Assembly: GCA_947258975.1 (NCBI GenBank)
Contig: CAMYKK010000038.1
Coordinates: 1 to 39,445 of the forward strand
Length of the DNA: 39,445 nucleotides
Source of the DNA: an uncultured Gammaproteobacteria bacterium
GTDB lineage: Bacteria; Pseudomonadota; Gammaproteobacteria; Arenicellales; JAANXG01
Reading direction: 5' to 3'
Below the pieces are notes generated by a model. The model ran no database searches. It worked only from the letters and a program-made list of their open reading frames with translations, and had not been told where the DNA came from. Made by a program: the position numbers and the translations under genes. Below, piece by piece: positions 181 to 38,556 of the stretch (position 1 is its first letter; every line of letters begins with the position of its first letter).

Positions 181-1188
181 CTATGGATTGATGGCGTTCA
201 AGCCCACGAACGTGCCGCCGTTGCGCTCGCTGAGCAGGCGCATCAAGGCCGCGAATCGGACGCCGGTGGTGTCCAATCCGTCGGGACGGGTCAACTGAAC
301 CGGGAAGCCGACCGCATGAATGCGGACCAGGCGGTTGCCCTGCGCATCCTCACGATTAATGCGGTCCACGGTGCTGACCACGTCTGCGATCGAGCCGGAC
401 GAAAACTCGTCACCGAACACGTACAGACTGATTTTCTTGTCCGGGGCGTAATACGTGCGGATGGCGCGGGTGATGCCTTCGACCGGACTGCTGTTGCTGA
501 ACGGGTTCCAGGTGGCGAGTCTACGGCGGATCGCTTTACGCCGCGCGGGCGTATCGACAATCCATTTACCCGCATACTGCGAGAACATGAACTCACCCAT
601 GTCATTCATGACTTGGATGCCCTTGACCTGGGGATAAATGCTCAGCGTTTCCTCGACTTTTCTCAGCATCAGCTCCCAGGCGTAATTGAACATGCTCCCG
701 GAGGTGTCGATGATGAATATGATGTACTCGCTGTCCACCGGGATGCCGCCCACGGTCGCATCCGCAGGCGGGCGTCGGTATCCCGCGCCGAGCAGACGCC
801 GCATCTCAGCACTGAGTTCCTGCTTTGCCGACTGCAGCCGCCCACTGATCGCACGCTGCACGTCCAGATCGCGCTGCGCGGATGCAAACTCGCCGCGAAT
901 AGTGTCCAGATCTCCCATCAACCGCGCAAGCCGCTGCTTGATATCGGACACCTGCTCTTGTTTGCCGTTGAGCTGCCGGTTCAGGATCTGCGTGTCTCCG
1001 CGTATCTCGAAGATTTGCTGGACGAGGTCGGCGACCACCTCTTTGAGGTCGGCGCGTATTGCCTCCAGCACCCGCGGCTCAGCGGTCTTGGACAACACCA
1101 GGACGAGGATAATGGCACCGAATGCACAGCAGATCACATCGAGGAAGGAGATGCTAAACGCCTCCACGGCGCGGCGGCGGCGTCTCAT
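181..1188 (-). CDS. ExbD-like membrane helix + coiled coil + von Willebrand A protein (second VWA of operon)
   Basis: This is a 335-residue predicted inner-membrane protein facing the periplasm. After a basic start (MRRRRRAVEAF) comes one hydrophobic helix at about residues 11-33 containing SFLDVICCAFG. That layout, an Asp at the start of a single N-terminal helix, resembles ExbD/TolR/MotB. Residues about 45-125 look like coiled coil. A VWA domain follows from about residue 150, with the metal-site motif DTSGSM. It is the last gene of the operon. Its ATG overlaps the stop of the upstream VWA gene by four bases (ATGA), so translation is probably coupled. The neighbouring MotA/ExbB-type gene suggests it is one of two stator-arm subunits; that role is inferred. 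The VWA fold and the helix are clear; the ligand is unknown. Confidence 0.88.
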   Translation of the reverse strand: MRRRRRAVEAFSISFLDVICCAFGAIILVLVLSKTAEPRVLEAIRADLKEVVADLVQQIFEIRGDTQILNRQLNGKQEQVSDIKQRLARLMGDLDTIRGEFASAQRDLDVQRAISGRLQSAKQELSAEMRRLLGAGYRRPPADATVGGIPVDSEYIIFIIDTSGSMFNYAWELMLRKVEETLSIYPQVKGIQVMNDMGEFMFSQYAGKWIVDTPARRKAIRRRLATWNPFSNSSPVEGITRAIRTYYAPDKKISLYVFGDEFSSGSIADVVSTVDRINREDAQGNRLVRIHAVGFPVQLTRPDGLDTTGVRFAALMRLLSERNGGTFVGLNAINP

Positions 1189-2297
1189 GGCCAGTCCCGC
1201 GACGGCGCCAAGAATGACCCCGAGGTCGATAATGCCAGTTTCCAGAACTCGCTGGCGGCAAACGGATCGCCTTCTATGGGGAACAATATGGTGTTCACCG
1301 GAACGTTGGCGGGCAGGCGGTCGATGGCGCGGCGGAACAACTTGCGCCGTTGTTCGCCGGAAACCCGTGATCGTGCCGGCTTGGACTTCCCCTGGGTGGG
1401 CAGACCATCGCTGATGAGAAATATGTTGTCAGGCCGCGGTGTCAACGAGCGCGTCACTTCGAACGCGTGGTAAAGACTGGTGCCACCGTCCGGCGCCACC
1501 GCGCGCAGCCGCGCAACCGCCTCATCGAGCATGCCTTTGTCCCGGGTGTCCAACCACTTCCCATCGGTGCCCGCAATCACCGGCCGCGCCTTGGTATTAA
1601 AGGCAAATAATTGATACTGGCCGTTCTCAGGCAGTTGTGCGAGCAGCCATTCGACCGTGCGCACCGCACGCCGCCACTTGGGCGCGTCGCGTTTTAACGC
1701 GTCGGATAGGTTGCGCAGGCGGATGATGTTGACGATGGTTTCCTCCAACATGCTCGCGGAAGCATCCACCAGAATCAGTACGCGCTTACCGCCCATCTTC
1801 AACCCGGTCAAGTATTGACGATCCCCTTCGCCGATAAAACGCCTGACCTTGGCGCCTTGCGCCTTTTCCCGTTCCCGTTCCGCGGCCAGCTTTTGCTGGT
1901 CCTGATCGAGCTTGTTTACATCCGACTTGAGCCGGTTCACGTGCTCGCGCTGAGACTGCGTCTCCTTGGTGAGCGTGGCGATCTCGGGTTGCACCCGTCG
2001 AATGTGATCGAGCACCTCGCGAGACCGGCCTTCGGTGACCACGCGTTCACGCTCGATCTCATCGAGCGTGTTTCGCAGTTCGGCCAGATAGCGTTCGCCC
2101 GCCGCCACCTCGGTCTCGAGACGCGACACCTCGCCGCGCAGATCCTGATGCACTTGCGTGCGCCGCGTCAGGGTATCGGCGTTCACGATCATCACCAATA
2201 GGATGACCGAGCCGAATCCACAGAACATGACATCCAAAAACGAGAGCCCGAAGACGCTGATGTCTCGTCGTTTGGTGCGTTTGCTGAGCGCGGCCAC
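1185..2297 (-). CDS. ExbD-like membrane helix + coiled coil + von Willebrand A protein (first VWA of operon)
   Basis: This 370-residue protein is paralogous in layout to the VWA gene after it. One N-terminal membrane helix (about 14-37) contains SFLDVMFCGFG, then a long heptad-rich coiled coil (about 45-150), then a VWA domain. The metal site is DASASM, a variant of the usual DxSxS pattern that keeps the key Asp and Ser residues. A threonine (DGGTSLYHAF) and an aspartate (ISDGLPTQG) further on fit the other metal-site positions. I chose the GTG start, which lies 21 nt after the proton-channel gene and has a GGGG run upstream. The two VWA proteins are diverged but share the same membrane motif, so they may form a heterodimer. 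This is inference from layout; no closer family name is recognised. Confidence 0.87.
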   Translation of the reverse strand: MAALSKRTKRRDISVFGLSFLDVMFCGFGSVILLVMIVNADTLTRRTQVHQDLRGEVSRLETEVAAGERYLAELRNTLDEIERERVVTEGRSREVLDHIRRVQPEIATLTKETQSQREHVNRLKSDVNKLDQDQQKLAAEREREKAQGAKVRRFIGEGDRQYLTGLKMGGKRVLILVDASASMLEETIVNIIRLRNLSDALKRDAPKWRRAVRTVEWLLAQLPENGQYQLFAFNTKARPVIAGTDGKWLDTRDKGMLDEAVARLRAVAPDGGTSLYHAFEVTRSLTPRPDNIFLISDGLPTQGKSKPARSRVSGEQRRKLFRRAIDRLPANVPVNTILFPIEGDPFAASEFWKLALSTSGSFLAPSRDWP

Positions 2298-2318
2298 CGG
2301 ATCCCCGCGGGGTGATCG

Positions 2319-3131
2319 CTAGCGTCGCAAGCGGCGGATCAGCCGCTGATCGCAATAGCCCTCGGTCTCGAGCACGACCCGCTCCTGGGCAAGTTGCAGT
2401 TGATGCACGAAAAACATGACGACAATGCTGATCACCAGGGCGATAAACGTCGAATTGAACGCCACACCCAGGCTTTGGGTGACCCCGGTGATGTCACCTT
2501 CCACCGCCCGGTGCGCCTGTGACAACGCATCGCTGATGCCGCGCACGGTGCCGATGAACCCGATCGAGGGAATGGCCCAGGCGATATAGCGGATGATCGA
2601 CAATTCCGACTCGAGACGTTCGGCTTCGGACTGACACACCTCGCGTGCGGCTGCGGAAACACTTTGTACATTGTCCGCTGCCGCGAAGCGGTGCAGGGCC
2701 GCGGTCAATGCCCGCGGCAGCAGCAAACCGCGGGCACGCGCCGGCAACGCTTGAATGCGGCGCGACAGACCGTGAGTGTCGTCCTGGGTGATCGGCGCGT
2801 CGCTCGCATCGCCAATGAGATCCGCATCGAGCAAGCGCCGTTCGCGATAGATCAATGTTCCCTTATATCCCATGATCGAAAATGCCCACAGCATGAGTAC
2901 AAAGCATGCTTCCTGCTCGAAGTCGCGTACCACAACGTATAACGACCGTTGCTGTACGTATTGGGGATCGGCTTGCATCCTTTCCGACTCGGCGTACAGG
3001 AACGCCTCGGCGTTGGGTCTGATCATGGCAACATAGAGCGCATGGATTAGGATTACGGCGACGAGTAGTGAAAATATCTGATAGATAAATTCCACGGGAA
3101 TCGCCTTTTTCATGAAGTTCGCACTCATCAT
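2319..3131 (-). CDS. MotA/TolQ/ExbB-type proton channel family protein
   Basis: This 270-residue integral membrane protein has three main hydrophobic segments: about 14-36, about 186-205 (IPSIGFIGTVRGISDAL) and about 225-246 (SLGVAFNSTFIALVIS). The last two carry the glycine-rich and threonine-containing helices typical of MotA/TolQ/ExbB channels. Those proteins conduct protons and drive an associated ExbD/MotB-type subunit. The cytoplasmic loop (about 95-185) is larger than in ExbB. It starts at ATG with AGGA upstream, 10 nt after the small secreted protein, and is followed 21 nt later by two VWA proteins with ExbD-like helices. No exbD, tolR or motB is present, so the VWA proteins are the likely partners. 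Confidence 0.9.
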   Translation of the reverse strand: MMSANFMKKAIPVEFIYQIFSLLVAVILIHALYVAMIRPNAEAFLYAESERMQADPQYVQQRSLYVVVRDFEQEACFVLMLWAFSIMGYKGTLIYRERRLLDADLIGDASDAPITQDDTHGLSRRIQALPARARGLLLPRALTAALHRFAAADNVQSVSAAAREVCQSEAERLESELSIIRYIAWAIPSIGFIGTVRGISDALSQAHRAVEGDITGVTQSLGVAFNSTFIALVISIVVMFFVHQLQLAQERVVLETEGYCDQRLIRRLRR

Positions 3132-3141
3132 TGATCCTCGC

Positions 3142-3369
3142 TCAAATATCAGTAGGAAAGGAAATCACATTGTCAGGAGAAATCTTATCGGTGGGCACAA
3201 ACCGCTCGGGCAGCTTTTCCGCTCGCTGCGGGGATCCGGATGGCAATTTGGGGACGGTCTCGGGCTGCGCTGCCGCGGAATCCGATTCCGGCGCGGTTGC
3301 TGGTGTCTGACCCATCGCCGACGCCGCCAGCATCAACGCGGTCGCTATCATTAGCCGGCTATTCGACAT
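3142..3369 (-). CDS. Small secreted protein of the VWA/proton-channel operon
   Basis: This is a 75-residue protein starting MSNSRLMIATALMLAASAMG, a classic signal peptide with likely cleavage after AMG. The mature part is about 55 residues, rich in Pro, Ala and Glu, and ends with ISPDNVISFPTDI. There is an in-frame ATG 14 codons upstream. I prefer this one because it places the signal peptide at the N-terminus and overlaps the stop of the upstream FHA/SUMF gene by only 11 bases. No domain is recognised. Its fixed position between the FHA fusion and the channel gene suggests an accessory periplasmic subunit. Function unknown. Confidence 0.7.
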   Translation of the reverse strand: MSNSRLMIATALMLAASAMGQTPATAPESDSAAAQPETVPKLPSGSPQRAEKLPERFVPTDKISPDNVISFPTDI

Positions 3370-5704
3370 AACGTGCGATCCGGAATCCAAGATCTTGCCG
3401 TTCTTTGTCACTGTAATCCCGAAAACTCAATCGCAATTCACTGATGGTCGAGTGTTTCCAACCGGCACCGCGCACCACGTGGTGGCGCCCTGACGCGGGT
3501 CCAATCGGGTCGGTTACCACGCGCGCACCGGTGACGTGGACATCGTAGAAGTCGTGGCACCACTCTGCCACGTTCCCACCCACGTCGTGGACGCCCAGGT
3601 GGTTCGGAGGAAAGCTGCCGACCGGGGCGGTGACCGCAAATTGGTCGTTGTAGGTCGAGAGCGTATTGGGAAGCAGGCCGGTAGCCGAGCGGTCGGCGTA
3701 GTTGCCCACCGCACCGACCGGTGGATAACTGTTTCCCCAGTCATACTTGTTGGGGCGCGAACGCTCCGCGTGGCGCGCCGCATATTCCCATTCCGCCTCG
3801 GTGGGCAGACGATAACCGTTTGTGGGCGGCCGCACCGCGACCAGCTTGCCGCCCTGTTCCGCGTATGCCGGGGCCAAACCGTCCTGCTTGCTCAACCAAT
3901 TCAGGTAGGCGGCCGCCTCGTCCCAGCGCATGTTCACCGCCGGTTGCAGGTCGTCGTCGAGACTGCGGCCATAGGCGGCACCGGAGCTGTGCTCCGACTT
4001 GAAACGGCGAAACTGTCCATTGGTGACCTCTTTGATGCCGAGATAGAACGCGCGGGTCAGCGCCACCTGGTGCAATTGCTCGTTTGCCCGTCGGCCCTGT
4101 TCGCGGCGCGATGCCCCCATGGCGAACCGGCCGGGCTCGATCAGCCGCAGCACTTGGCCCGCGCCGGTGGTGACCGTCTTGGCGGGGGTGGCCCTCGATG
4201 AGCTGGCGTTTTGCCGGTTTAGCGTCACCGTCAACTCTTTGCTCACTCCCGCGCGGGGGGTGACGGTCACCCGGTAGGGTTGGTAGCCGGGCTTTCTAAA
4301 TTCCAGCTGGTGCGGCTCGGTGGTCAACTGCATACCTTGGGTCCCCGCACCGCGTTCCTTGCCATCGACGAAGAGCCGTGCATCAGGGGGCTCGCTGACA
4401 ATGAATAGCGCGCCGTACTCGGCGGGCAGCTCGACGTCCAGAGACTCGGTGGCCGCGGGTTGCAGACTCACCGTCTTGCTGACCGTCTTGCGGCCCGACC
4501 TGGCTAACACGATATGATGCTCTTGTCGCGGGCTGAGCGCGAGTTCCAGCGGCGTCACCCCCTGATACCTGCCGTCCATCGTCACCGATGCGCCAACCGG
4601 CTCGCTGCTGACGGCGAGCAGTCCGTTAGACGGTGTGAGCACGAACGGTTCCGGTGTCACCGCCTCACCGGCGACTACGGTAAGCTCGGAGCGGACGGGA
4701 TCGTGCTCAGGCAACCGCAGTTCAACGGCGTGCTTCCCCGAAAGCAGGTCCACCGTTGCGGGTGTCGTGCCTACCTTCTCACCATCCACCCACAGTGACG
4801 CTCCGGTCGGACTCGATGCGAATGATACCGGGGCCCAATCGGGTTGCAGCGTAATGGCAACTTCTTGCGAGCGGCCCATGCCATCGACTTTCAGATCAAG
4901 CGCAACTGGTTGGTAACGAGCCGCAGTCACCTGAATCCGATGCGCGCCGGCACGCAGTTCGAGATCCCGAATCGGCGTGGTGCCCACCGCTTGCCCATCG
5001 ACGCTCACGGTCGCGCCCGACACCGGATCACTGACCAGCGTGATACGACCGGGCAGCTTTTCCATATTGAACACTAACGCCTGATGCGGCCCGCGGCGGA
5101 TGTCGACACCATCGCGCAGCGGCTGATAGCCAGTCTTGCTGGCTACGACCTCATAGGTGCCGGGATAGACCAGATAGCGATCCCGGAACTTAATTGCCGG
5201 CAGCGCGCCGCGTAAATCGAGGCGTTCCGGCGCGGGGGTGATCGTGACCGATACCGAAGTAGCGGTGATCACAAAGACCGCGGCCGCGAGCAAGATTAGG
5301 AACATCGCCAGCACACCGAGCCGCAGCATGCGGCGGCTGCCGCGTCTCACCACCGGGGCTCCGGCAGCGGTCGTGAAGGTTGATGGTTCGGCGCTGCGTT
5401 CCTGTAGTTGCAGCGTTTGCCCCGTAATGACACACACCAGCGTCGCGGCGCCGATTCTGACATGGTCCCCATCCCGCAATGGGGCGGGATCCGTCACACG
5501 CCGCTCATTGAGCAGTACCGTGATCGTCGGCACACCGGGTACCAACCACGGGTGGCCACCCCGGCACTCGACGTATGCGTATTCATTCTGGCTGTGGTCA
5601 CCGGATAAGGGAATATCCGCGGCCACACCGCCCAGACTCAGGCGCTCACCGTCGTCGCAAGACCGGTCTGCCACGTTGGTCCCGGTAATCGTGATCGTGT
5701 TCAA
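3359..5704 (-). CDS. FHA - transmembrane - PEGA(x5) - SUMF (formylglycine-generating-enzyme-like) fusion protein
   Basis: This is a 781-residue protein. Residues about 1-100 look like an FHA domain (phosphothreonine recognition), residues about 125-150 are one membrane helix (LGVLAMFLILLAAAVFVI), about 150-510 hold five PEGA-type beta repeats (for example VSDPVSGATVSVDGQAVG and VSEPPDARLFVDGKERG), and about 525-781 form a SUMF1/FGE-like domain (FAMGASRREQG, EVTNGQFRRFK, GGNVAEWCHDFY). I chose the TTG start. It overlaps the upstream stop (TTGA) and has GAGGAG five bases before it; an upstream ATG at 5719 would discard that site. The C-terminal end (RGAGWKHSTISELRLSFRDY) lacks the paired cysteines of true FGE, so a binding role is likelier than sulfatase activation. 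FHA would face the cytoplasm, PEGA/SUMF the periplasm. Confidence 0.87.
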   Translation of the reverse strand: MNTITITGTNVADRSCDDGERLSLGGVAADIPLSGDHSQNEYAYVECRGGHPWLVPGVPTITVLLNERRVTDPAPLRDGDHVRIGAATLVCVITGQTLQLQERSAEPSTFTTAAGAPVVRRGSRRMLRLGVLAMFLILLAAAVFVITATSVSVTITPAPERLDLRGALPAIKFRDRYLVYPGTYEVVASKTGYQPLRDGVDIRRGPHQALVFNMEKLPGRITLVSDPVSGATVSVDGQAVGTTPIRDLELRAGAHRIQVTAARYQPVALDLKVDGMGRSQEVAITLQPDWAPVSFASSPTGASLWVDGEKVGTTPATVDLLSGKHAVELRLPEHDPVRSELTVVAGEAVTPEPFVLTPSNGLLAVSSEPVGASVTMDGRYQGVTPLELALSPRQEHHIVLARSGRKTVSKTVSLQPAATESLDVELPAEYGALFIVSEPPDARLFVDGKERGAGTQGMQLTTEPHQLEFRKPGYQPYRVTVTPRAGVSKELTVTLNRQNASSSRATPAKTVTTGAGQVLRLIEPGRFAMGASRREQGRRANEQLHQVALTRAFYLGIKEVTNGQFRRFKSEHSSGAAYGRSLDDDLQPAVNMRWDEAAAYLNWLSKQDGLAPAYAEQGGKLVAVRPPTNGYRLPTEAEWEYAARHAERSRPNKYDWGNSYPPVGAVGNYADRSATGLLPNTLSTYNDQFAVTAPVGSFPPNHLGVHDVGGNVAEWCHDFYDVHVTGARVVTDPIGPASGRHHVVRGAGWKHSTISELRLSFRDYSDKERQDLGFRIARYVE

Positions 5705-7131
5705 ATCTGCTCCTCGCATCGCACGTCTATGGTTTGCAAGGCCGGACCGGCCGTGACCGTCCATTCCACGCGCACATCGCGGTATCCCGCTCGCGTCCCG
5801 CGCACGCGGTAGGTGCCGGGCAACAACATCGTCCGCGATTCCGAGAAACGGCCGAAACGGCCGACCCGATCGATGGACACCTCGGTTTCGTTGTCGGAGC
5901 GCAATAACACCGCCACCGGGGTGCTTGTGAGCCTGACGAGTTCCTCGAGGGCAGCGAGTTTTTCCCGCAGTCGCGGCCCGTTATCCGGCAGCGAACGTTC
6001 ATGTGTTAGCAGACGTTCGGCGTTAGCCCGCGGTTCGGGCGACTGCAGGCGATCGGGGGCGTCCAGATATGCATCCAACTGCGCATGGAATTCGGCAAGC
6101 TGCTCGGCGCGCTGCAGCCCCTGCAACGCAAATTGCGCCTGCGCGTCGATCGCCAGCACCGCCTGATACTCGGAAATCACGTCCTGCCAGCGCTCCTCAC
6201 GCTCGCCTCGCTGAGCACGCGCGCGATGCTGCGCAATCGTTGTCGCCTGTCGCGCCCGCGTCAACCGCCGTTGTGCATCGACGACGTCCGCCGATTGCGG
6301 ATTCAGTCCGCGCGCCCGCTCCAGTGCGCGGCGGGCCTCCGGCAGCGCCCCACTTTCAATTGCGGTCAGCGCATCAGACATGGCGTCACGGAATGCGAGT
6401 TGTTTGATTGTCGCCCCTACCCGATCCACACCCGCGCGTGCTTCTCGCGACTCGGGATCCAAGCGTTGCGCCGCGCGATACTGCTCCTCGGCCGATGTCC
6501 ATTGGCGGTTGCTCTCGCGCTCGCGTCCAGACGCCAACAAACCGGCGAGGCGATCGAGGATTTTCGCTCGTTCCGCGCCCCGCCTTGCCTGTGCATGTCG
6601 TGGGTCCACGGCCAGGGCGATCATGAATTGCTTCTGCGCGGATTCAGCGTCGTAGGTCTCGAGTGCGTGCGCCCCCTGTTCCAAGGCCGCAGCCAGCCGG
6701 TCGGCCTTGGAGGCGTCCAGCGCCGCCAACATGGCGGTGACGTCGCGATAGGTATTGGCCGCCGCCGCGAAGTTCCGACTGGCGAACTCGGCGTCGCCCT
6801 CGGCGAGGCGCATGAGCGCTGTTTCATAATCCGTGTCACCCCAGATCCGAACCTGCTGCGCCTCGAGCACGGTCTGACGTTCAAGCAGTTGCTGTAATGC
6901 GTGCTCAGCTTCGCGTTTGTCCCGCGCGAGCTGTATCTGTTCGGCCTTCGGCGCGACCGGTGCGGCCGCGTCGGGAACCGGCCTGTCGCTGGACTCTTCG
7001 ACGACCGCGCGCCGATCCACGATATCCGGAAGCACCCACACCACGAGCACGACGGCGGTCAATAAGATGATGAGCGCCGTGAGCAGTGATATCCGGACCC
7101 AAAGAGGAGCATGCATCCGAGCGCGGGTCAC
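5701..7131 (-). CDS. Membrane-anchored helical-repeat protein with C-terminal PEGA domain
   Basis: This is a 476-residue protein. An N-terminal membrane anchor (about 10-33) precedes an Ala/Arg/Glu-rich helical region (about 55-360). The repeats there are TPR-like, for example FAAAANTYRDV, QFMIALAVDPRHAQA and RAAQRLDPESREA. The C-terminal part (about 385-476) is a single PEGA-type domain (VLLRSDNETEVSIDRVG, then LLPGTYRVRGTRAGYRDV). I used the GTG start because of a GGA six bases upstream; an ATG five codons later is possible. It lies 28 nt after the lipoprotein gene and overlaps the FHA/SUMF gene. PEGA in two neighbours suggests periplasmic contact between them. A scaffold role is inferred. 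Confidence 0.82.
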   Translation of the reverse strand: MTRARMHAPLWVRISLLTALIILLTAVVLVVWVLPDIVDRRAVVEESSDRPVPDAAAPVAPKAEQIQLARDKREAEHALQQLLERQTVLEAQQVRIWGDTDYETALMRLAEGDAEFASRNFAAAANTYRDVTAMLAALDASKADRLAAALEQGAHALETYDAESAQKQFMIALAVDPRHAQARRGAERAKILDRLAGLLASGRERESNRQWTSAEEQYRAAQRLDPESREARAGVDRVGATIKQLAFRDAMSDALTAIESGALPEARRALERARGLNPQSADVVDAQRRLTRARQATTIAQHRARAQRGEREERWQDVISEYQAVLAIDAQAQFALQGLQRAEQLAEFHAQLDAYLDAPDRLQSPEPRANAERLLTHERSLPDNGPRLREKLAALEELVRLTSTPVAVLLRSDNETEVSIDRVGRFGRFSESRTMLLPGTYRVRGTRAGYRDVRVEWTVTAGPALQTIDVRCEEQI

Positions 7132-7159
7132 GCCGCTTCCACTCCCTCACCCCTTGGGG

Positions 7160-8392
7160 TCATTTCACCGGCGATGTTTGGGGCTGATCGTCGTCCGCAA
7201 TGTGGATCGCCGGCGCACCGGTCTCGGTTGCATAGATCTCGCTGAGCAGACGGCGCCACTGGTGAAACTGTTGCTCGGCGGATCCAGTCAATTCCACCGT
7301 CTGCCCCTCGACGTTGAGCACCAATGGCGCTACCTCGGCGTTGAACGACTCGCCGAGCTCACGGATCGCATCCTCATGGATCGCTTTCTGTGCACTGATG
7401 TCCATGCCGCGCTTAACGTTATACGCGCCGCCGAGAACCATCACATCCCGCACCGACTCGGTACCAGAGCCTCCACCCATTGCCTCTATCGCGATGGCGC
7501 CAACGATCATCGCGGCACCCAGTAGATAGCGGTTGGCTGCCTTCTGCTTTACTTCGCGCAACGCTTCGGCTTCGTCGCTGCGGGCCTTGCGCCACTCGAA
7601 ATACGGACCCGCCATTTCGGCATTGAAAATATCGTAGTAGCCGTTAACGACATCGATCAACATGTGTTCGCGCTCGCGAACCTTCATCACTCGATCGAGC
7701 ATCGGATCTGCTTGCGCGGGCAGCCTTTGTACAAGATAACGGCCGTCGTCAGCGGCGGTAATAAAACCGTCGAACGCTTTCGGCGCCAGTGATTTACCGA
7801 ATCTAAGTTGGGCGACGCGCTGAATTTCCAAGCTCCGCTCCGCCGGCAATCGCGCTTTGTGGTGGTACAGGTCATTGGCGATCCGATTGTAAATATCTTG
7901 AAATATCTCGCTTTCGTCGGCGTCGAGGTAGGCATCAGCATCAACCTGTTTTTCATATACGGTTCGAAACCACCGGTTTCCCGAGGCGTCGGATACCTTT
8001 ATCTCCAATTCCAGAACCTCGCCATCGGAGTCCAGGATCTTTCCTTCCACCATGACATCGACGGCATGGGTTTGCGCCGGCACCACGCGCACGGCCCCCC
8101 AGTGACCCGTTTTCTGCAAGGTATCACGCAGCACGAGTGGCATATAACGCGCCTCCGCCGATCGGATCTCGGTAGTGAGACCCTTCTTGTCCCGGTCCTT
8201 CTCGCTGATCTCTCCGGGATCGAAGACGCGAATGCCGACGTCAAGGAGTTGTTGCTCCTTTAGCTCGGCTTGGGCGTTGATCACCGGCGTGTCTTCGACC
8301 TGTTCGGCAACGGTCATGGTCTGGCATCCCGCGGCCAGCATGGCCGCGATCGCCACCACGATCACCAAACCACTCGATCTCACCGCTGTCAT
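7160..8392 (-). CDS. Large lipoprotein of the VWA/proton-channel operon
   Basis: This is a 410-residue protein. The signal peptide ends in a lipobox (AAMLAAGC), so the mature N-terminus should be a lipidated Cys at about residue 23. The mature protein begins with a beta-rich region (LLDVGIRVFDPG, AVDVMVEGKILDSDG, WFRTVYEKQV) that loosely recalls LpoB/CsgG-like lipoproteins. An unusual hydrophobic stretch (YLLGAAMIVGAIAIEAMGGG) lies at about 300. The chosen ATG overlaps the upstream stop by four bases and places the signal peptide first; an ATG-like start 15 codons earlier would bury it. Position suggests an outer-membrane-anchored component of the same complex. No specific family is recognised. 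Confidence 0.8.
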   Translation of the reverse strand: MTAVRSSGLVIVVAIAAMLAAGCQTMTVAEQVEDTPVINAQAELKEQQLLDVGIRVFDPGEISEKDRDKKGLTTEIRSAEARYMPLVLRDTLQKTGHWGAVRVVPAQTHAVDVMVEGKILDSDGEVLELEIKVSDASGNRWFRTVYEKQVDADAYLDADESEIFQDIYNRIANDLYHHKARLPAERSLEIQRVAQLRFGKSLAPKAFDGFITAADDGRYLVQRLPAQADPMLDRVMKVREREHMLIDVVNGYYDIFNAEMAGPYFEWRKARSDEAEALREVKQKAANRYLLGAAMIVGAIAIEAMGGGSGTESVRDVMVLGGAYNVKRGMDISAQKAIHEDAIRELGESFNAEVAPLVLNVEGQTVELTGSAEQQFHQWRRLLSEIYATETGAPAIHIADDDQPQTSPVK

Positions 8393-9318
8393 TGCGCCTG
8401 CACCTTGCCTGACTTGTATCGCTTGTACTCTTGCCATAGCTTCTCTCGAAGTTCGGGGTCGGTCTCGTTCTCCGCCGCTTCGCGTAGCTGTCGCGCGACC
8501 ACGTCGTCGTCACCGGCATCGGGCACATCGTCCCTAACCACCGCGCCGCGTCGTTTGGCGTCTTTCTGCGCACCAGCGTGATCAACCTTCGCGGTTTGAC
8601 CCGCTTCGCGGACACCACCGGTGGTAGTCCGGTCCGACGACGCTTCCGAGGTGGTCCCGGCGCCGCTGTCAACTGCGCTATCGGTTTGGTCTCCCGGTTT
8701 TTCGCTACGCGCCGCTTGATGATCACCCGCGCCCGCACCGCCCTGCTGTCCTCCGGTTCCCGATCCGGAGCCGTTCCCGGCGTCGGGCGACCCGCTTTGC
8801 GTGCGCGCCAGTTGCTCCATCTCGCGCAGCAGCATGTCATCGAATTCTGACAGCGACGAACCCAGTCGCCGCTCCAGTGCCGCTATACGTTCACCTTCGG
8901 TCTGCTCGTTGGGGTACGACAGCGGCCCTTGGTTCTTGAGCGCGCCGCGATCACAGTTGGGTTCGGGCGCAGTGTCGCCGGTATTTTCCTTGATACGCGA
9001 CACCGCTTGGCAATTCACTCGGACCATCCGCTCCAGGCGGCTCAGGAAAGTGCGGTAGTCATCTGATTCAGCCGGCGATAATGTGCCCGTTTGCCGCAGC
9101 CTCTGGTATTCCGCCGTGGCACGCGCCTCGGCGGCAAGCGCCGCTTGCAGCGCCTGCCGCGCTGCCGGCAAGTCCGTCGATGCGTCCTCCGCCGCGGCGG
9201 CGGCGCCCGCCAGCAATCCCAACAAGGGCCACAACATCGCGGACAACACAGTTAGGGAAGCGTTATTACCCATGCCCTTATTCGAGACCGCACGCGAACG
9301 GAAGTTCAGCTTGCCCAT
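8389..9318 (-). CDS. Secreted coiled-coil / low-complexity protein, first gene of the VWA operon
   Basis: This is a protein of about 309 residues with a signal-peptide-like segment (LTVLSAMLWPLLGLLAGAAAAAED) after a basic region. A helical region (about 45-110, Ala/Arg/Gln/Leu rich) follows, then a strongly hydrophilic Gly/Ser/Gln/Thr-rich stretch likely to be disordered, and a charged helical C-terminus (LREAAENETDPELREKLWQEY). The start is uncertain. ATGs at 9345, 9318 and 9273 are all compatible; I chose 9318 because GTGGA lies six bases upstream and the signal peptide stays near the N-terminus. It overlaps the lipoprotein gene (ATGA). No family is recognised. Confidence 0.68.
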   Translation of the reverse strand: MGKLNFRSRAVSNKGMGNNASLTVLSAMLWPLLGLLAGAAAAAEDASTDLPAARQALQAALAAEARATAEYQRLRQTGTLSPAESDDYRTFLSRLERMVRVNCQAVSRIKENTGDTAPEPNCDRGALKNQGPLSYPNEQTEGERIAALERRLGSSLSEFDDMLLREMEQLARTQSGSPDAGNGSGSGTGGQQGGAGAGDHQAARSEKPGDQTDSAVDSGAGTTSEASSDRTTTGGVREAGQTAKVDHAGAQKDAKRRGAVVRDDVPDAGDDDVVARQLREAAENETDPELREKLWQEYKRYKSGKVQAQ

Positions 9319-9345: not shown

Positions 9346-9648
9346 GGTATTGCGCCTGATTACCTTAGATCGCAAGAATACCACCGGCCTCGCCTGGAAA
9401 GCAGTGGGATCGGTCAAAGACTGTGAAAAACGACGTCCTTTATAGTTGCGGCAAGGTCGCGAGCCGACGCTAATAAATGTATTTATTTCAAATAGTTATG
9501 CAGTATTTGCGCACGGACGCATGGCGGCGGGTCGGACCCCTGGATGCAGAGGGCTCCGCCCCCCATGCTTAGGGATTCAGAGGGGGCACAGCCCCTGTTC
9601 AGGAGGTCTGACTCCGTGGCATCGGGGGAAATCAGCCCCCCGGCGGCA
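9346..9648. other. Intergenic region upstream of the VWA operon
   Basis: No convincing gene is seen here. It separates the start of the VWA operon from the end of the PLA2-like lipoprotein gene and must hold the operon promoter, but I could not pick a well-spaced -35/-10 pair. Between about 9540 and 9645 it is GC-rich with short G/C inverted repeats (GGGGC-ACA-GCCCC, and GGGGG pairing with CCCCC) that could fold after the upstream lipoprotein gene. None is followed by a T run. Confidence 0.4.
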
Positions 9649-10086
9649 TCAATTGTCGTATCCCGCCGGATAGGAGCGGCCGAAACCCCAGCGCCAGTGA
9701 AACGGAACGATGTGATGACCGCCGATCCGCGTGCCAAGATACATCAACGTACCGATCCACGCCGCGGAACGATTCGCAACACACGCACGCAATTGCCGAT
9801 CGGCATCCCGGCGCTGTTGGGCGCTACCGCCGCACCAATACGGAATGTCGTGCGCCACGCAACATTCTACCCACTGCCCATCCGGCCATAGCGAACAACC
9901 GTCGGTAATGAAGGGCGTGGCCGGTGGTTCCACATTTCCGCTTTGTCGACAGACCTGTTCCGCGCTGCGCTGCAGTTGCGCCGCGCTCTGTGTATCGCTG
10001 CGATAGGGCTCCACCGTGTGTCGCGGGGGCGCGCACCCATTGAGCGCCAATGCCGACAAGGTTACGGCTACGTAAACAGGTTTCAT
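9649..10086 (-). CDS. Putative lipoprotein with phospholipase A2-like CCxxHD motif
   Basis: This is a 145-residue protein. The N-terminus MKPVYVAVTLSALALNGC is a signal peptide ending in a lipobox-like LNGC; Asn at -2 is unusual. The mature part contains DGCSLWPDGQWVECCVAHDIPYWCGG. Two adjacent cysteines followed by His-Asp is the active-site signature of secreted phospholipase A2 folds, and the Gly-rich segment before it could be a calcium loop. Nine or so cysteines suggest disulfides. The rest (RRDADRQLRACV) fits the helix carrying the second catalytic Asp. Enzymatic activity is not certain; it could be a structural relative. It stands alone between repeats. Confidence 0.72.
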   Translation of the reverse strand: MKPVYVAVTLSALALNGCAPPRHTVEPYRSDTQSAAQLQRSAEQVCRQSGNVEPPATPFITDGCSLWPDGQWVECCVAHDIPYWCGGSAQQRRDADRQLRACVANRSAAWIGTLMYLGTRIGGHHIVPFHWRWGFGRSYPAGYDN

Positions 10087-35604: not shown

Positions 35605-35635
35605 TTGACCCCGCTGCCCGGTGCAAGTCTAATAT
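35605..35635 (+). promoter_or_regulatory. Likely tRNA-Phe promoter
   Basis: TTGACC (35605-35610) is followed 17 bases later by TCTAAT (35628-35633), or 19 bases later by TAATAT (35630-35635). GC-rich sequence follows (GCGACACCGCACC), resembling a stringent discriminator. The start would be about 30 bases before the mature tRNA. Confidence 0.55.
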
Positions 35636-36795
35636 GCGACACCGCACCGTCGCACACATCTCCTCATGGCCAGGTAGCTCAGTCGGTAGAGCAGGGGACT
35701 GAAAATCCCCGTGTCGGCAGTTCGATTCTGTCCCTGGCCACCCATTTGCCGACCGTGACCAAAACGTGACACATTATCCAAGCGTGCCACCGCAGCGCGC
35801 ACATTTTCCGGTGCCAGATGCGCATATCGCTCGGTCATCTTCACCGTGCTGTGCCCTAGAAGATCACGTACTTCTGTTAACGGCACACCCGCTGAAACCA
35901 ACCATGCGGCGCATGTGTGCCGAAGATCATGAATACGAAAGTCTTCAATGCCTGCCCGCTTACACGCGGTCATAAAGCTATTTCGCACCAGACCTATCCG
36001 CTCTCCCTTCTTGTTACAAAACACCCAAGGGCTTGTTGGACAATATTCCGCGCGAAAACGTGCGCGGTTTATCAACGCCCTTCGCGCGTTCTGGTTCAAC
36101 GGAATGCTGCGCCGTCTTCCTGTTTTGGTGTGTTCTCCTTCCAGATAAAACAAACCACCGGCCAGATCGACCCGCTTCCATTCCAACCACAGTAACTCAC
36201 CTGACCGACATCCTGTGTGCAATGCCAACCGGATGAAATCCGGTAGATGCCGTGCCTTGGATTCAATCCCCGCAGCGCGTATCAGTGCACCCGCTTCCTG
36301 CTGGGTGAGCCAACGTGCCCTACCCTCGCCCTCCTTAAGCTTCCGTCCCTGAATGACGTTTGGTAGCTCCCAGTCCCACTCTCGGTTCGCGTAGTTAATC
36401 GCCGCCGACAGCAACGATAGTTCCCTGTTGATGGTCGAGTTCTTCTTGCCTTCGGATTTACGAAAAGCAATATATGCCCGCACATCCTTGGGGCTAAGCT
36501 CGTTCATCACCCGTCCCTTTAAGAACCGCCGTAAGTTTCGTGTCCGACCACGATCCTTAAGGTGCGTCCTTTTCTCATTTCGCGTTGCCTTGAGATACGC
36601 AACCATCAACTCTTCGAAACTCCGCGATGGCTGTGCGTCCCATTGCTTGACGCGAAACGCCTCCAGCTTCCATTTGGCCTCTAAGGCCGCGGCTTCCCTG
36701 CGGTTGTCTGTCCCAGTAGAGCGTCTAATTCTCTTGCCGCTTGGGTCGGCGAAACTGACCCACCACGCGGCTCCGTCTTTGCGCTTGTATGGCAT
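35629..36795 (-). CDS. Tyrosine recombinase (phage-type integrase) at tRNA-Phe
   Basis: This is a 388-residue site-specific recombinase. It has an N-terminal Arm-type region (MPYKRKDGAAWWVSFADPSGKRIRR), a core-binding SAM-like domain (SFEELMVAYLKAT, STINRELSLLSAAINYA), and the catalytic domain with Arg in HTGCRSGELLWLEW, Lys near EHTKTGRRR, HDLRHTCAAWL, LLGHSTVKMT and Tyr in ERYAHL. The last 45 residues (GQGQNRTADTGIFSPLLYRL) are antisense to the tRNA-Phe gene, so the C-terminus was made by integration. It lies to the right of the tRNA, pointing at it, so the element extends rightwards. It would integrate and, with the excisionase, excise the element. Confidence 0.94.
   Translation of the reverse strand: MPYKRKDGAAWWVSFADPSGKRIRRSTGTDNRREAAALEAKWKLEAFRVKQWDAQPSRSFEELMVAYLKATRNEKRTHLKDRGRTRNLRRFLKGRVMNELSPKDVRAYIAFRKSEGKKNSTINRELSLLSAAINYANREWDWELPNVIQGRKLKEGEGRARWLTQQEAGALIRAAGIESKARHLPDFIRLALHTGCRSGELLWLEWKRVDLAGGLFYLEGEHTKTGRRRSIPLNQNARRALINRARFRAEYCPTSPWVFCNKKGERIGLVRNSFMTACKRAGIEDFRIHDLRHTCAAWLVSAGVPLTEVRDLLGHSTVKMTERYAHLAPENVRAAVARLDNVSRFGHGRQMGGQGQNRTADTGIFSPLLYRLSYLAMRRCVRRCGVAY
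35668..35740 (+). tRNA. tRNA-Phe (GAA)
   Basis: This is a 73-nt tRNA without an encoded CCA. The acceptor stem is GGCCAGG/CCTGGCC, the D arm AGCTCAGTCGGTAGAGC, the anticodon arm GGGGACTGAAAATCCCC with anticodon GAA, and the T arm ends with TTCGATTC. The discriminator is A, followed by CCC rather than CCA. The 3' half is the likely attachment site of the integrative element on its right. Confidence 0.95.
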
Positions 36796-37016
36796 GTGCT
36801 ACCTCCTTCACGCACAGCCGGCCCCGCGCAGCCGCTATTATTCGGGATCGCGGTGCAGGTTTCCACCCACGATTCCAATGCGGCCACTGGGATCCGGACT
36901 GCGCCTCGTACTCGTACGACCGGCAGCTCCTGTCGTTCAATCATGCGGCGTATGGTCCGCGCCGATACGCTAAGCTGCTGGGCCGTATCTGCAATCGATA
37001 ACAACAACCGGTTCAT
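36681..37016 (-). CDS. Excisionase-like HTH (MerR/HTH_17) DNA-binding protein
   Basis: This is a 111-residue protein. Residues about 1-55 are a helix-turn-helix of the excisionase type: LSIADTAQQLSVSARTIRRMIERQELPVVRVRGAVRIPVAALESWV. The second half is low-complexity and reads across the start of the integrase gene in another frame (115-bp overlap), so the useful part may be only the HTH. Position directly upstream of the integrase is usual for recombination directionality factors. The ATG at 37016 begins the conserved part. Confidence 0.82.
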   Translation of the reverse strand: MNRLLLSIADTAQQLSVSARTIRRMIERQELPVVRVRGAVRIPVAALESWVETCTAIPNNSGCAGPAVREGGSTCHTSAKTEPRGGSVSPTQAARELDALLGQTTAGKPRP

Positions 37017-37031
37017 TACCCGAACCTCCAT

Positions 37032-37895
37032 TCAACGCCCTAGGTAGACGTTGACGATGTCAATGCGGCTGTGACCCAGTTCCTGCGTGACCTGCATTCT
37101 GGCCCGAAAGTCGGTCTCTCGTTGCATTTCGGTAAGTGCCGCCCTAAACGGCCCGCCCGCCGCCGGTGATTTCCAGCCGGTGAGTTCTTCGTACCGGCTT
37201 TGCGCGTAGGCGTGTCGCAATCCATGTGTTCTGGAGATCCCCGCCTTGGTGGTCTCGTATTGCCACTTCGCCAGGTGCTCCCGGTAGGATTTGTGCGGCG
37301 GAATCATCGAGTTATTCCCAGCCAGGCGTTTCGCCTCGTCGAGGACCACCCGTTGCGCCGGGGTGCGGATCGGAATCTGCCGTTCCCGGCCGCCTTTGCA
37401 CCACGAACGCTTGAGCTGCAGATAGCTGCCACAATCGGCCCACACCGGTTGCAGCTTCATCGCCTCTTCTCGGCGCAGACCAAACTGCTGCTGGAGCTTG
37501 AGCGAGATTTGCGTGTGCGTATCCTTGACCAGTGCGATCTTGGCCTCCGATCCGTTGATAGCCTTGGAGACGTTGGTCTTGTAGGCTCGCTTGCCGATCC
37601 CAAGCTCGGCATTGGTGCGCGGGACGATGTTGGGTTTGTCTATTTTCTCGGCCGTCCAGCGTAAGAACGCTAGTCGGTTCTTGAGCGTGGCGTCACAGGC
37701 GGTCTTTTTCCAAGTTTCGACCGCCGCCAAGATGTGTTTCGGTTTAATGGAGCGTTCGTTTTGGATCGTAAATCCAGCCTTGTGGACCGCGCGCGCAAAC
37801 AAAGATGCCATGCGCCGTCGATCGGCCTGGGTGACCTTGGACCCGTCTCGGTTGCGTCGGACCAGCCTGATCAGTCGATATTCCAGATCGTTCAT
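37032..37895 (-). CDS. Integrase-domain protein (Integrase_1-like)
   Basis: This is a 287-residue protein with the layout of the Integrase_1 (PF12835) group. A helical N-terminal domain (about 1-110) is followed by a catalytic-like domain: FGLRREEAMKLQPVW (Arg), RSWCKGGRERQIPI (Lys region), RTHGLRHAYAQSRYEELTG, and QVTQELGHSRIDIVNVYLG with the final Tyr. The ATG at 37895 follows GAGGAG. It lies 15 bp upstream of the excisionase-like gene on the same strand, so the three genes may be one operon. It may act with or independently of the other integrase. Confidence 0.88.
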   Translation of the reverse strand: MNDLEYRLIRLVRRNRDGSKVTQADRRRMASLFARAVHKAGFTIQNERSIKPKHILAAVETWKKTACDATLKNRLAFLRWTAEKIDKPNIVPRTNAELGIGKRAYKTNVSKAINGSEAKIALVKDTHTQISLKLQQQFGLRREEAMKLQPVWADCGSYLQLKRSWCKGGRERQIPIRTPAQRVVLDEAKRLAGNNSMIPPHKSYREHLAKWQYETTKAGISRTHGLRHAYAQSRYEELTGWKSPAAGGPFRAALTEMQRETDFRARMQVTQELGHSRIDIVNVYLGR

Positions 37896-38556
37896 TAGAT
37901 CTCTCCTCGTTCTCGAGGCCCTCTTTGCAAACACCGAGATATTCAAAGTGTGAAGAGCAAGTCGGTTAGTGTTGATCCGCCATTGTTCGGCCGTAGCACA
38001 AGAACAATCTTTATCGGCGGGTTCGGTCGCTCACACGGCACGACCGTGTCCGTTATGGACCGCCAATGTGGGTTTTCTTGTGAAAACCCAGCATCGACCT
38101 TTCGGTTTCTCAGTGTTTTACGTCGATAGCCTCCTTTTGATTGATGAAAGGGTTTAACGAGAGACGTCCAATACACGAGGAGTGCTCGATCGGATGCAGA
38201 CGCACGAATGCGCGCATCGTCGATCGACACTCGACATCGCGAATGGATGATGGAAGAAATCCGCCGCAGCACGAGCGCATCGACCAATGCTTAGGCTCGG
38301 GTCCGTCCCTTAATCCTAAATGAAAGAGATCCGGTTGGCTTACGCCAGAGGACGCCTTACAACCAGCATGACGTCTCGCCGATTTTGCCCCGATAGGAGC
38401 CACGATCGTGCAGCGTGTTTAGAAATCGGTCAATCCGGCTTGCGCCAGATTGGCGTTACTTTATGCCCATAGAAAATGCCTGACAAGCCCTATATCGTCA
38501 CTTACTCGGCGCTCTTTATTTTGACCTCCAAAGCCGCGCCACACTTACGTTTCCCA
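37896..38556. other. No gene recognised
   Basis: Several short frames exist on both strands, but none has a ribosome site plus protein-like composition. The stretch is inside the integrative element. It should include the promoter of the integrase operon near 37900-38000 and possibly attP-arm sites for the recombinase. Nothing more can be supported. Confidence 0.4.

Follow-up and report, generated by a model that had tools for sequence, protein, structure and literature searches.

Few of the envelope motors driven by the proton-motive force (pmf) are understood, and the flagellum, the Ton and Tol systems, the gliding/type IX secretion (T9SS) motor and Zorya each opened a field. The 5:2 motors are defined by a B subunit with a single membrane helix that bears a conserved Asp (PMC9389320). 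In the T9SS, PorK is described as having an FGE fold that lacks both catalytic cysteines and is used as a docking hub (PMC12421860). Closest to the present work, a recent report (Mol Biol Evol 2025, PMC12204202) describes vWA genes that occur in heterologous pairs beside a tolQ-like gene, with no tolR, in Proteobacteria and Verrucomicrobia; an Asp lies in a 'transpore helix', which AlphaFold3 models set in the channel pentamer, and no function is given as known. Here we analyze a contig of 39,445 nucleotides from an uncultured Gammaproteobacteria bacterium (CAMYKK010000038.1 of assembly GCA_947258975.1), the whole of which is called the window, and a cassette of eight genes at positions 181-9318 that encodes a channel, two VWA proteins (VWA-A and VWA-B) and five envelope proteins. 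We consider it probable that the cassette specifies a trans-envelope motor of the 5:2 type, driven by the pmf (proton or sodium), that acts on an assembly of pseudo-FGE, PEGA and lipoprotein components.

The Locus and Its Relatives

Inspection of the window showed that all eight open reading frames (ORFs) are intact, lie on the minus strand and are closely packed, as a preliminary description of this DNA had claimed. In order of transcription they encode a secreted protein (8389-9318, its longest ORF starting at 9417), a lipoprotein (7160-8437), a TPR/PEGA-like protein (5701-7131), a fusion protein (3359-5764), a short exported peptide (3142-3411), the channel (2319-3131), VWA-B (1185-2297) and VWA-A (181-1188). 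The secreted protein gene overlaps that of the lipoprotein, the TPR/PEGA-like gene overlaps the fusion gene, the fusion gene overlaps that of the peptide, and the two VWA genes overlap by 4 nt; gaps of 28, 10 and 21 nt separate lipoprotein from TPR/PEGA-like gene, peptide from channel and channel from VWA-B, respectively. The window being the entire contig, the locus can be read only as far as the contig extends on the 181 side. In L038, the nearest relative found among the matches listed (VWA-A 87% identical), the next likely gene downstream of VWA-A sits on the opposite strand.

Relatives were gathered by similarity to VWA-A, an alignment of which was searched against one genome per species and gave at least 585 relatives among at least 594 pattern matches; the best 80 of 585 were retained. 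We examined 106 loci (the window, L029-L117 and L122-L137), of which 105 are distinct by VWA-A and 74 reach 8.7 kb or more upstream of it.

The Motor Core

The motor core, composed of the channel and the two Asp-bearing VWA proteins, is well supported. The channel belongs to the TolQ/ExbB/MotA family (PF01618, 58.9 bits against a Pfam cut-off of 22.9), and its Thr195 (2547-2549, in PSIGFIGTVRGI) and Thr228 (2448-2450, in AFNSTF) are invariant in ten of ten aligned proteins. Motifs of the PSIGFIGTVRGI type were seen in 92 of 92 channels and of the AFNSTF type in 91 of 92, the exception, L134, reading TFNSTL and keeping the Thr. VWA-B, recognized by the Pfam VWA_2 model (36.8 against a cut-off of 27), has an N-terminal membrane helix with Asp22 (codon 2232-2234), a coiled coil and a VWA head with DxSxS, Thr273 and Asp297; the Trp-Pro at its C-terminus (1185-1193 in the window) is near-invariant, occurring in 102 of 105 loci. 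By sequence VWA-A falls below the Pfam VWA cut-off (13.5 against 27), and comparison of its profile with solved structures gave coiled-coil matches and an integrin at E 0.74; its fold was taken instead from an AlphaFold2 model (mean pLDDT 76.8, pTM 0.55). There, a single helix (residues 15-123) precedes a VWA-like domain, with inter-alpha-inhibitor heavy chain (E 2.6e-7) and a bacterial VWA protein (E 1.4e-6) as the top Foldseek matches. We read VWA-A as an N-terminal membrane helix with Asp17 (codon 1138-1140), a helical stalk to about residue 123 and a putatively periplasmic VWA head with DxSxS.

Both VWA proteins open with a membrane helix of the form SFLDV.CCGFGAIILL. All 67 VWA-A proteins in the alignment, from which some with long extensions upstream had been omitted, share the Asp of this helix, and it was found in 106 of 106 loci, 103 by pattern and three by eye (L091 AFIDVISC, L117 SFLDCVCC and L134 SFLDTITC). 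For VWA-B the pattern found it in 101 of 105 loci; three of the four exceptions are truncated, and the fourth, L123, keeps the Asp (SFLDCICC). An A-subunit family together with a single-helix, Asp-bearing B subunit is what marks members of the MotAB/ExbBD/TolQR superfamily, and both are present here. The preliminary description took the ExbD/MotB partner of the channel to be missing; on the present evidence it is not, since the conserved Asp sits, in each VWA protein, in a membrane helix of an ExbD/MotB-like kind.

An alternative is that these proteins make up an ion channel or a scaffold and perform no mechanical work, the VWA heads serving to sense or bind a ligand at the surface. This would suit VWA domains, which are binding modules, and the retention of the metal motif DxSxS in 106 of 106 VWA-A proteins; in VWA-B the motif was seen in 100 of 105. 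Nevertheless, we think this unlikely, since the channel Thr motifs and the axle Asp are kept across distant genomes, which would hardly be expected without ion coupling.

It is quite unlikely, too, that the VWA proteins are side-bound transducers in the manner of TonB or TolA, with an ExbD or TolR from elsewhere as the axle. There is a precedent in PMC12204202, where another vWA family with a TonB-like SHLS motif is predicted to bind at the side, and the same account assigns the axle position to the paired kind that has tolQ only, which is the kind seen here. The genome does hold five ExbD genes, none on the window's contig, and the Pfam ExbD model does not recognize the VWA helices. However, all five adjoin other channel genes, no ExbD/MotB family is listed by Pfam or NCBIfam for any of the eight products (for VWA-B, among the best 25 of 34 families), and both VWA helices carry SFLD..CGFGA-type motifs with the conserved Asp. 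A TolB gene lies elsewhere in the genome, close to one of the channel/ExbD pairs, and therefore an ordinary Tol system probably exists in it as well. Two further weak MotA/ExbB-family genes (G000:C57:19637-19903 and G000:C18:56244-56522) have none of the five ExbD genes nearby.

The Envelope Proteins

The fusion protein combines a membrane helix (about residues 149-170), PEGA repeats (154.6 bits) and a C-terminal FGE-like domain at residues 541-798 (FGE-sulfatase, 160.7 bits, both Pfam), preceded by an FHA-like region that is considered below. In the C-terminal stretch of the FGE-like domain, where we presume the catalytic Cys pair of FGE to lie, 34 of 39 aligned members (picked for completeness and spread) have no Cys, five have one and none has two; judged by its sequence, the domain is without the two catalytic Cys of an active FGE.

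It is highly improbable that the cassette is a proteobacterial version of the T9SS/gliding motor (GldKLMN/PorKLMN), whether a true member or a near homologue. Of the NCBIfam models, GldK is the one that the last domain of the fusion protein resembles most (E 1.9e-30), and, as reported for PorK (PMC12421860), the FGE cysteines are missing from that domain; but the domain scores 106.5 bits against the GldK equivalog cut-off of 350, NCBIfam lists no match to GldL, GldM or GldN among the eight proteins, and the axle head is VWA. Independent recruitment of the same pseudo-FGE domain is the more likely explanation. The two systems are alike in pairing a 5:2-type pmf motor with a Cys-less FGE-fold protein, and differ in that the FGE-like domain here sits on a membrane-anchored protein with PEGA repeats. 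Bacteroidota are not represented among the loci kept (best 80 of 585). A search of the genome for the SprA/Sov translocon gave no match, and the control genomes gave none either.

The protein encoded upstream of the fusion gene (5701-7131) is probably membrane-anchored and TPR-like, with a PEGA-like C-terminal domain; the assignment draws on weak, sub-threshold Pfam matches to TPR and CarboxypepD_reg, a PEGA likeness seen by eye and a conserved position. The lipoprotein has Cys38, kept in at least 90% of 57 proteins, and gave no convincing family match in Pfam or NCBIfam and a best E of 0.062 when its profile was compared with solved structures. In its AlphaFold2 model (pLDDT 84.3) a domain at residues 55-198, on which the structure comparison mainly bears, is followed by a long hairpin of helices, the tip of which has low confidence. 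The domain matches FlgT (Z 11.6, rmsd 3.6, 129 residues aligned), an LPHT ring entry (8z5n, Z 11.2), PelC (10.5), CsgG (9.5) and the N-terminal domain of TolB (8.8). Several relatives with the FlgT/PelC/CsgG-type fold form rings, as some of the entry titles say. The predicted fold is therefore one shared with ring-forming FlgT/PelC/CsgG-like lipoproteins, and the fold alone shows no ring. The secreted protein, which matched no family, is of low complexity in its middle part, and a C-terminal segment of about 42 residues is conserved.

The Short Exported Peptide

The gene between those of the fusion protein and the channel encodes a peptide with a signal-sequence-like start (by eye), a linker that is variable and unconserved, and the C-terminal tail ISFPTDI (FPTDI at 3145-3159); its true start probably lies inside the annotated ORF. 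In each of the 79 loci tested the peptide closes with P-x-D-I as its last four residues, and in 78 of them an F or Y precedes the Pro. A minimum ORF of 50 residues gave 65 of 70, a wide frame scan gave 76 of 79, and the last three, two FPVDI and one LPVDI, were found with wider limits. Among 22,112 stop-to-stop frames of at least 40 residues in the loci, 87 end in [FY]PxDI, and 85 of these adjoin a channel or fusion gene. In L036, and in some lineages, little of the peptide is left beyond the signal-like sequence and the tail, as judged by eye. A second, inverted copy of the tail at a contig end (L056, minus strand, base 5) is probably an assembly artefact.

Synonymous codons vary freely within the invariant tail (Ile as ATT/ATA/ATC, 27/25/24), and for that reason we reject the idea that it is conserved merely as DNA upstream of the channel gene. 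The suggestion that its Asp is a metal ligand of the VWA heads is weakened, since DxSxS stays in all five loci without the peptide for VWA-A, and in two of the five for VWA-B. L122-L126 lack the fusion gene, and in their stretches no ORF of at least 40 residues ends in P-x-D-I. Because the two genes adjoin, the peptide was not found without the fusion gene, and true FGE accommodates a short peptide containing Pro in its groove, we suggest that the exported peptide probably docks in the groove of the pseudo-FGE domain.

Conservation and Spread

The preliminary description proposed gene order in other genomes as a check, and the order is indeed kept: all seven large genes occur in the same order in 61 of the 74 loci with sufficient upstream sequence. 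In one more, L134, all seven are present and the channel gene has moved behind VWA-A. The remaining 12 are without some of the seven; among them L054 and L100 lose genes at the edge of the fetched stretch, L073 and L080 are without some genes, L061 has its envelope genes on the other strand, and L122-L126 account for five. In 85 of the 86 loci for which 3.6 kb upstream were available, the channel, VWA-B and VWA-A genes all lie on one strand; L080 departs from this. L122-L126, from the phylum around the Kiritimatiellia record, hold motor genes without envelope genes on their strand, namely the channel, VWA-B, VWA-A and, in four of the five, a ninth gene described below; a motor of this type may have other outputs. 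In L123 and L125 a weaker TPR/PEGA-like match was seen on the opposite strand.

For six of the proteins we compared pairwise distances over 69 loci; they correlate at r = 0.90-0.96, against a permutation maximum of 0.26 (200 per pair). This set excluded L122-L126 and also L129 and L130, in which VWA-A is that of L039 and the peptide tail that of L040, respectively; L129 and L130 are still counted in the tallies of motifs, gene order and peptide tails. Because the order recurs in distant genomes and the distances of six proteins correlate, the cluster is more than chance. The correlation indicates co-inheritance, not contact.

By their record labels the best 80 relatives come from Gammaproteobacteria (many Halieaceae and Microbulbifer), Desulfobacterales and other Deltaproteobacteria, Acidobacteriota, Myxococcales, Planctomycetota and Kiritimatiellia; single taxon labels may be wrong, since many of these records are metagenome bins. 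Occurrence is patchy: relatives were found in 48 of the 109 genomes of the order and in 28 of the 369 of the class (counts that include the centre genome), and phylum samples around the Desulfobacterales, Kiritimatiellia and Planctomycetota records gave 3 of 198, 15 of 194 and 2 of 199, each including its own centre. Among the best 80 are named cultured strains of Microbulbifer, Parahaliea, Seongchinamella and Pseudohalioglobus.

Downstream of VWA-A we also observed two genes for lipoprotein-like products (in 41 and 38 loci), together with a gene for an M48-type metalloprotease with a HEIGH motif (34 loci), as at L045:10971-13770 and in equivalents in other Halieaceae and Microbulbifer loci; the protease gene is on the opposite strand in L041. 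L038 is without this module, which was therefore left out of the system.

FHA-Like Regions and a Ninth Gene

A cytoplasmic input through the FHA region of the fusion protein had also been proposed, and as a phospho-input it finds no support in the window. The region (residues 49-105, putatively cytoplasmic) is sub-threshold in Pfam (14.4 against 20.7 bits) and, compared by eye with what we take to be the consensus, is without the usual phosphopeptide residues. Read by eye, a comparable N-terminal region is present in 21 of 68 fusion proteins, including those of the window and L038-L040. In 58 of the 74 loci, and in 47 of the 61 ordered ones, there is a ninth gene, as a rule between channel and VWA-B, whose product is weakly Hsp70-like in its N-terminal part (E 0.001) and matches solved FHA domains by profile in its C-terminal part; Pfam recognizes FHA in 14 of the 33 proteins scanned, which were aligned after being picked for completeness and spread. 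The ninth gene is absent from the window and its close relatives L038-L040 and L128, and L030-L034, L036 and L037 have neither the ninth gene nor the FHA-like region of the fusion protein. Phospho-input may be real in many lineages; because the window's FHA is sub-threshold and some loci have neither carrier, it is doubtful in the window and not universal.

Discussion

The reading that we favor, an ion-driven motor with VWA heads, agrees with the preliminary description, and the same core idea was independently predicted in PMC12204202. Five copies of the channel would surround a VWA-A/VWA-B heterodimer that serves as the axle, the 5:2 geometry being that of the published prediction. The Asp of each VWA membrane helix would bind and free an ion facing the channel's threonine ring, and the axle would turn or tilt as a result. 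A helical stalk of about 90 residues would pass this motion to the two periplasmic VWA heads, which may act on the membrane-anchored PEGA/TPR proteins, one of them with an inactive FGE-like docking domain, and through these on a lipoprotein, presumably in the outer membrane, whose fold is often ring-forming. For the peptide, the most plausible dock is the groove of the inactive FGE-like domain, which its P-x-D-I end would enter. As for the task in the cell, mechanical work on the outer membrane seems most likely, with moving or opening the lipoprotein assembly and exporting a surface component being about equally plausible.

Several points weigh against this reading. It is drawn from sequence and from folds predicted for single chains, and the conserved membrane Asp could serve assembly instead of ion transfer. 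No solved structure matched the channel profile at E <= 0.1. PF02472 (ExbD) is not listed for the VWA proteins (for VWA-B, among its best 25 of 34 families) or anywhere on the contig, and because this model does not recognize the VWA helices, their likeness to ExbD/MotB is one of position and motif. DxSxS is absent from VWA-B of three intact, divergent loci, L123-L125, so metal-dependent gripping by the VWA-B head is not universal. The loci without the peptide still have DxSxS in VWA-A, so the peptide, as far as sequence tells, is not a necessary partner of the VWA-A head. The best Foldseek match of the lipoprotein reaches only E 6.6e-4 (TolB), with low overall TM-scores, and PqiC (Z 9.0) and LptE (Z 7.2) share its fold, which is common among lipoproteins; to our knowledge, neither LptE nor PqiC forms such rings. 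Finally, correlated distances would also be expected from plain vertical inheritance, among loci collected by similarity to VWA-A.

Of the described systems, the TPH-vWA/TolQ-like motors of PMC12204202 resemble the cassette most, in that a tolQ-like gene is accompanied by two different membrane-anchored vWA proteins with a membrane Asp, and by no tolR, exbD or motB; the paired vWA genes stand beside a tolQ-like gene in the 85 of 86 loci mentioned above, and the absence of ExbD from the locus was checked in the window's genome. This is a likeness to the genes as described there rather than to the sequence of its Idiomarina example. The differences lie in what accompanies the motor: PEGA does not occur in the text of that report, 'FHA' occurs in it only within FhaC, and genes for an FGE-like protein, a lipoprotein, a peptide or an Hsp70-like protein are not named in its section on the second vWA family. 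The Tol system (TolQRA-TolB-Pal) has in common with the cassette a TolQ-type channel and the TolB-N fold class of the lipoprotein domain, and none of the TolR, TolA, TolB and Pal families is listed by Pfam or NCBIfam for the eight proteins. Zorya shares the MotA/ExbB domain of ZorA (E 0.00026), and we set it aside: this channel domain is the only true match, other PADLOC hits to the VWA proteins fall in coiled coils, ZorB, ZorC, ZorD and ZorE found no match among the seven proteins scanned (the peptide excluded), and a VWA-headed pair occupies the place of ZorB.

The preliminary description considered the system undescribed. For the motor core this no longer holds, as it was already predicted in print in 2025 (PMC12204202). 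For the rest it may stand: the whole cassette was not found among open-licence PubMed Central papers, a coverage outside which most subscription papers and preprints lie, and VWA is not mentioned in the text available of a paper on MotAB relatives (PMC12505986). The machine that is inherited with the motor core thus seems to be undescribed. More tentatively, we propose that it may be a distinct trans-envelope machine, with an axle gene present in the genomes of hundreds of species of several phyla, and a proteobacterial counterpart of the T9SS motor made of other parts; it would have a VWA heterodimer as the axle of a pmf-driven 5:2 motor, a pseudo-FGE/PEGA scaffold, a lipoprotein ring in the outer membrane, a peptide that docks by P-x-D-I and, in many lineages, an Hsp70-like FHA protein for control in the cytoplasm.

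If this is true, an inactive FGE domain has been reused independently beside two unrelated motor heads, and such domains would be a general means by which motors are linked to cargo in the envelope. The cassette occurs in named, cultured strains and is therefore testable, and the invariant P-x-D-I end, which the section of PMC12204202 on the core does not mention, offers a short handle for direct tests.

Other Features of the Window

A small lipoprotein-like ORF at 9649-10086, with no confident Pfam match, carries a CCVAHD motif that we take to be reminiscent of phospholipase A2 active sites. At 35629-37946 are two ORFs with the look, by eye, of phage-type integrases, the first of which overlaps a tRNA-Phe gene (35667-35744) on the other strand, and this region is a possible integration site.

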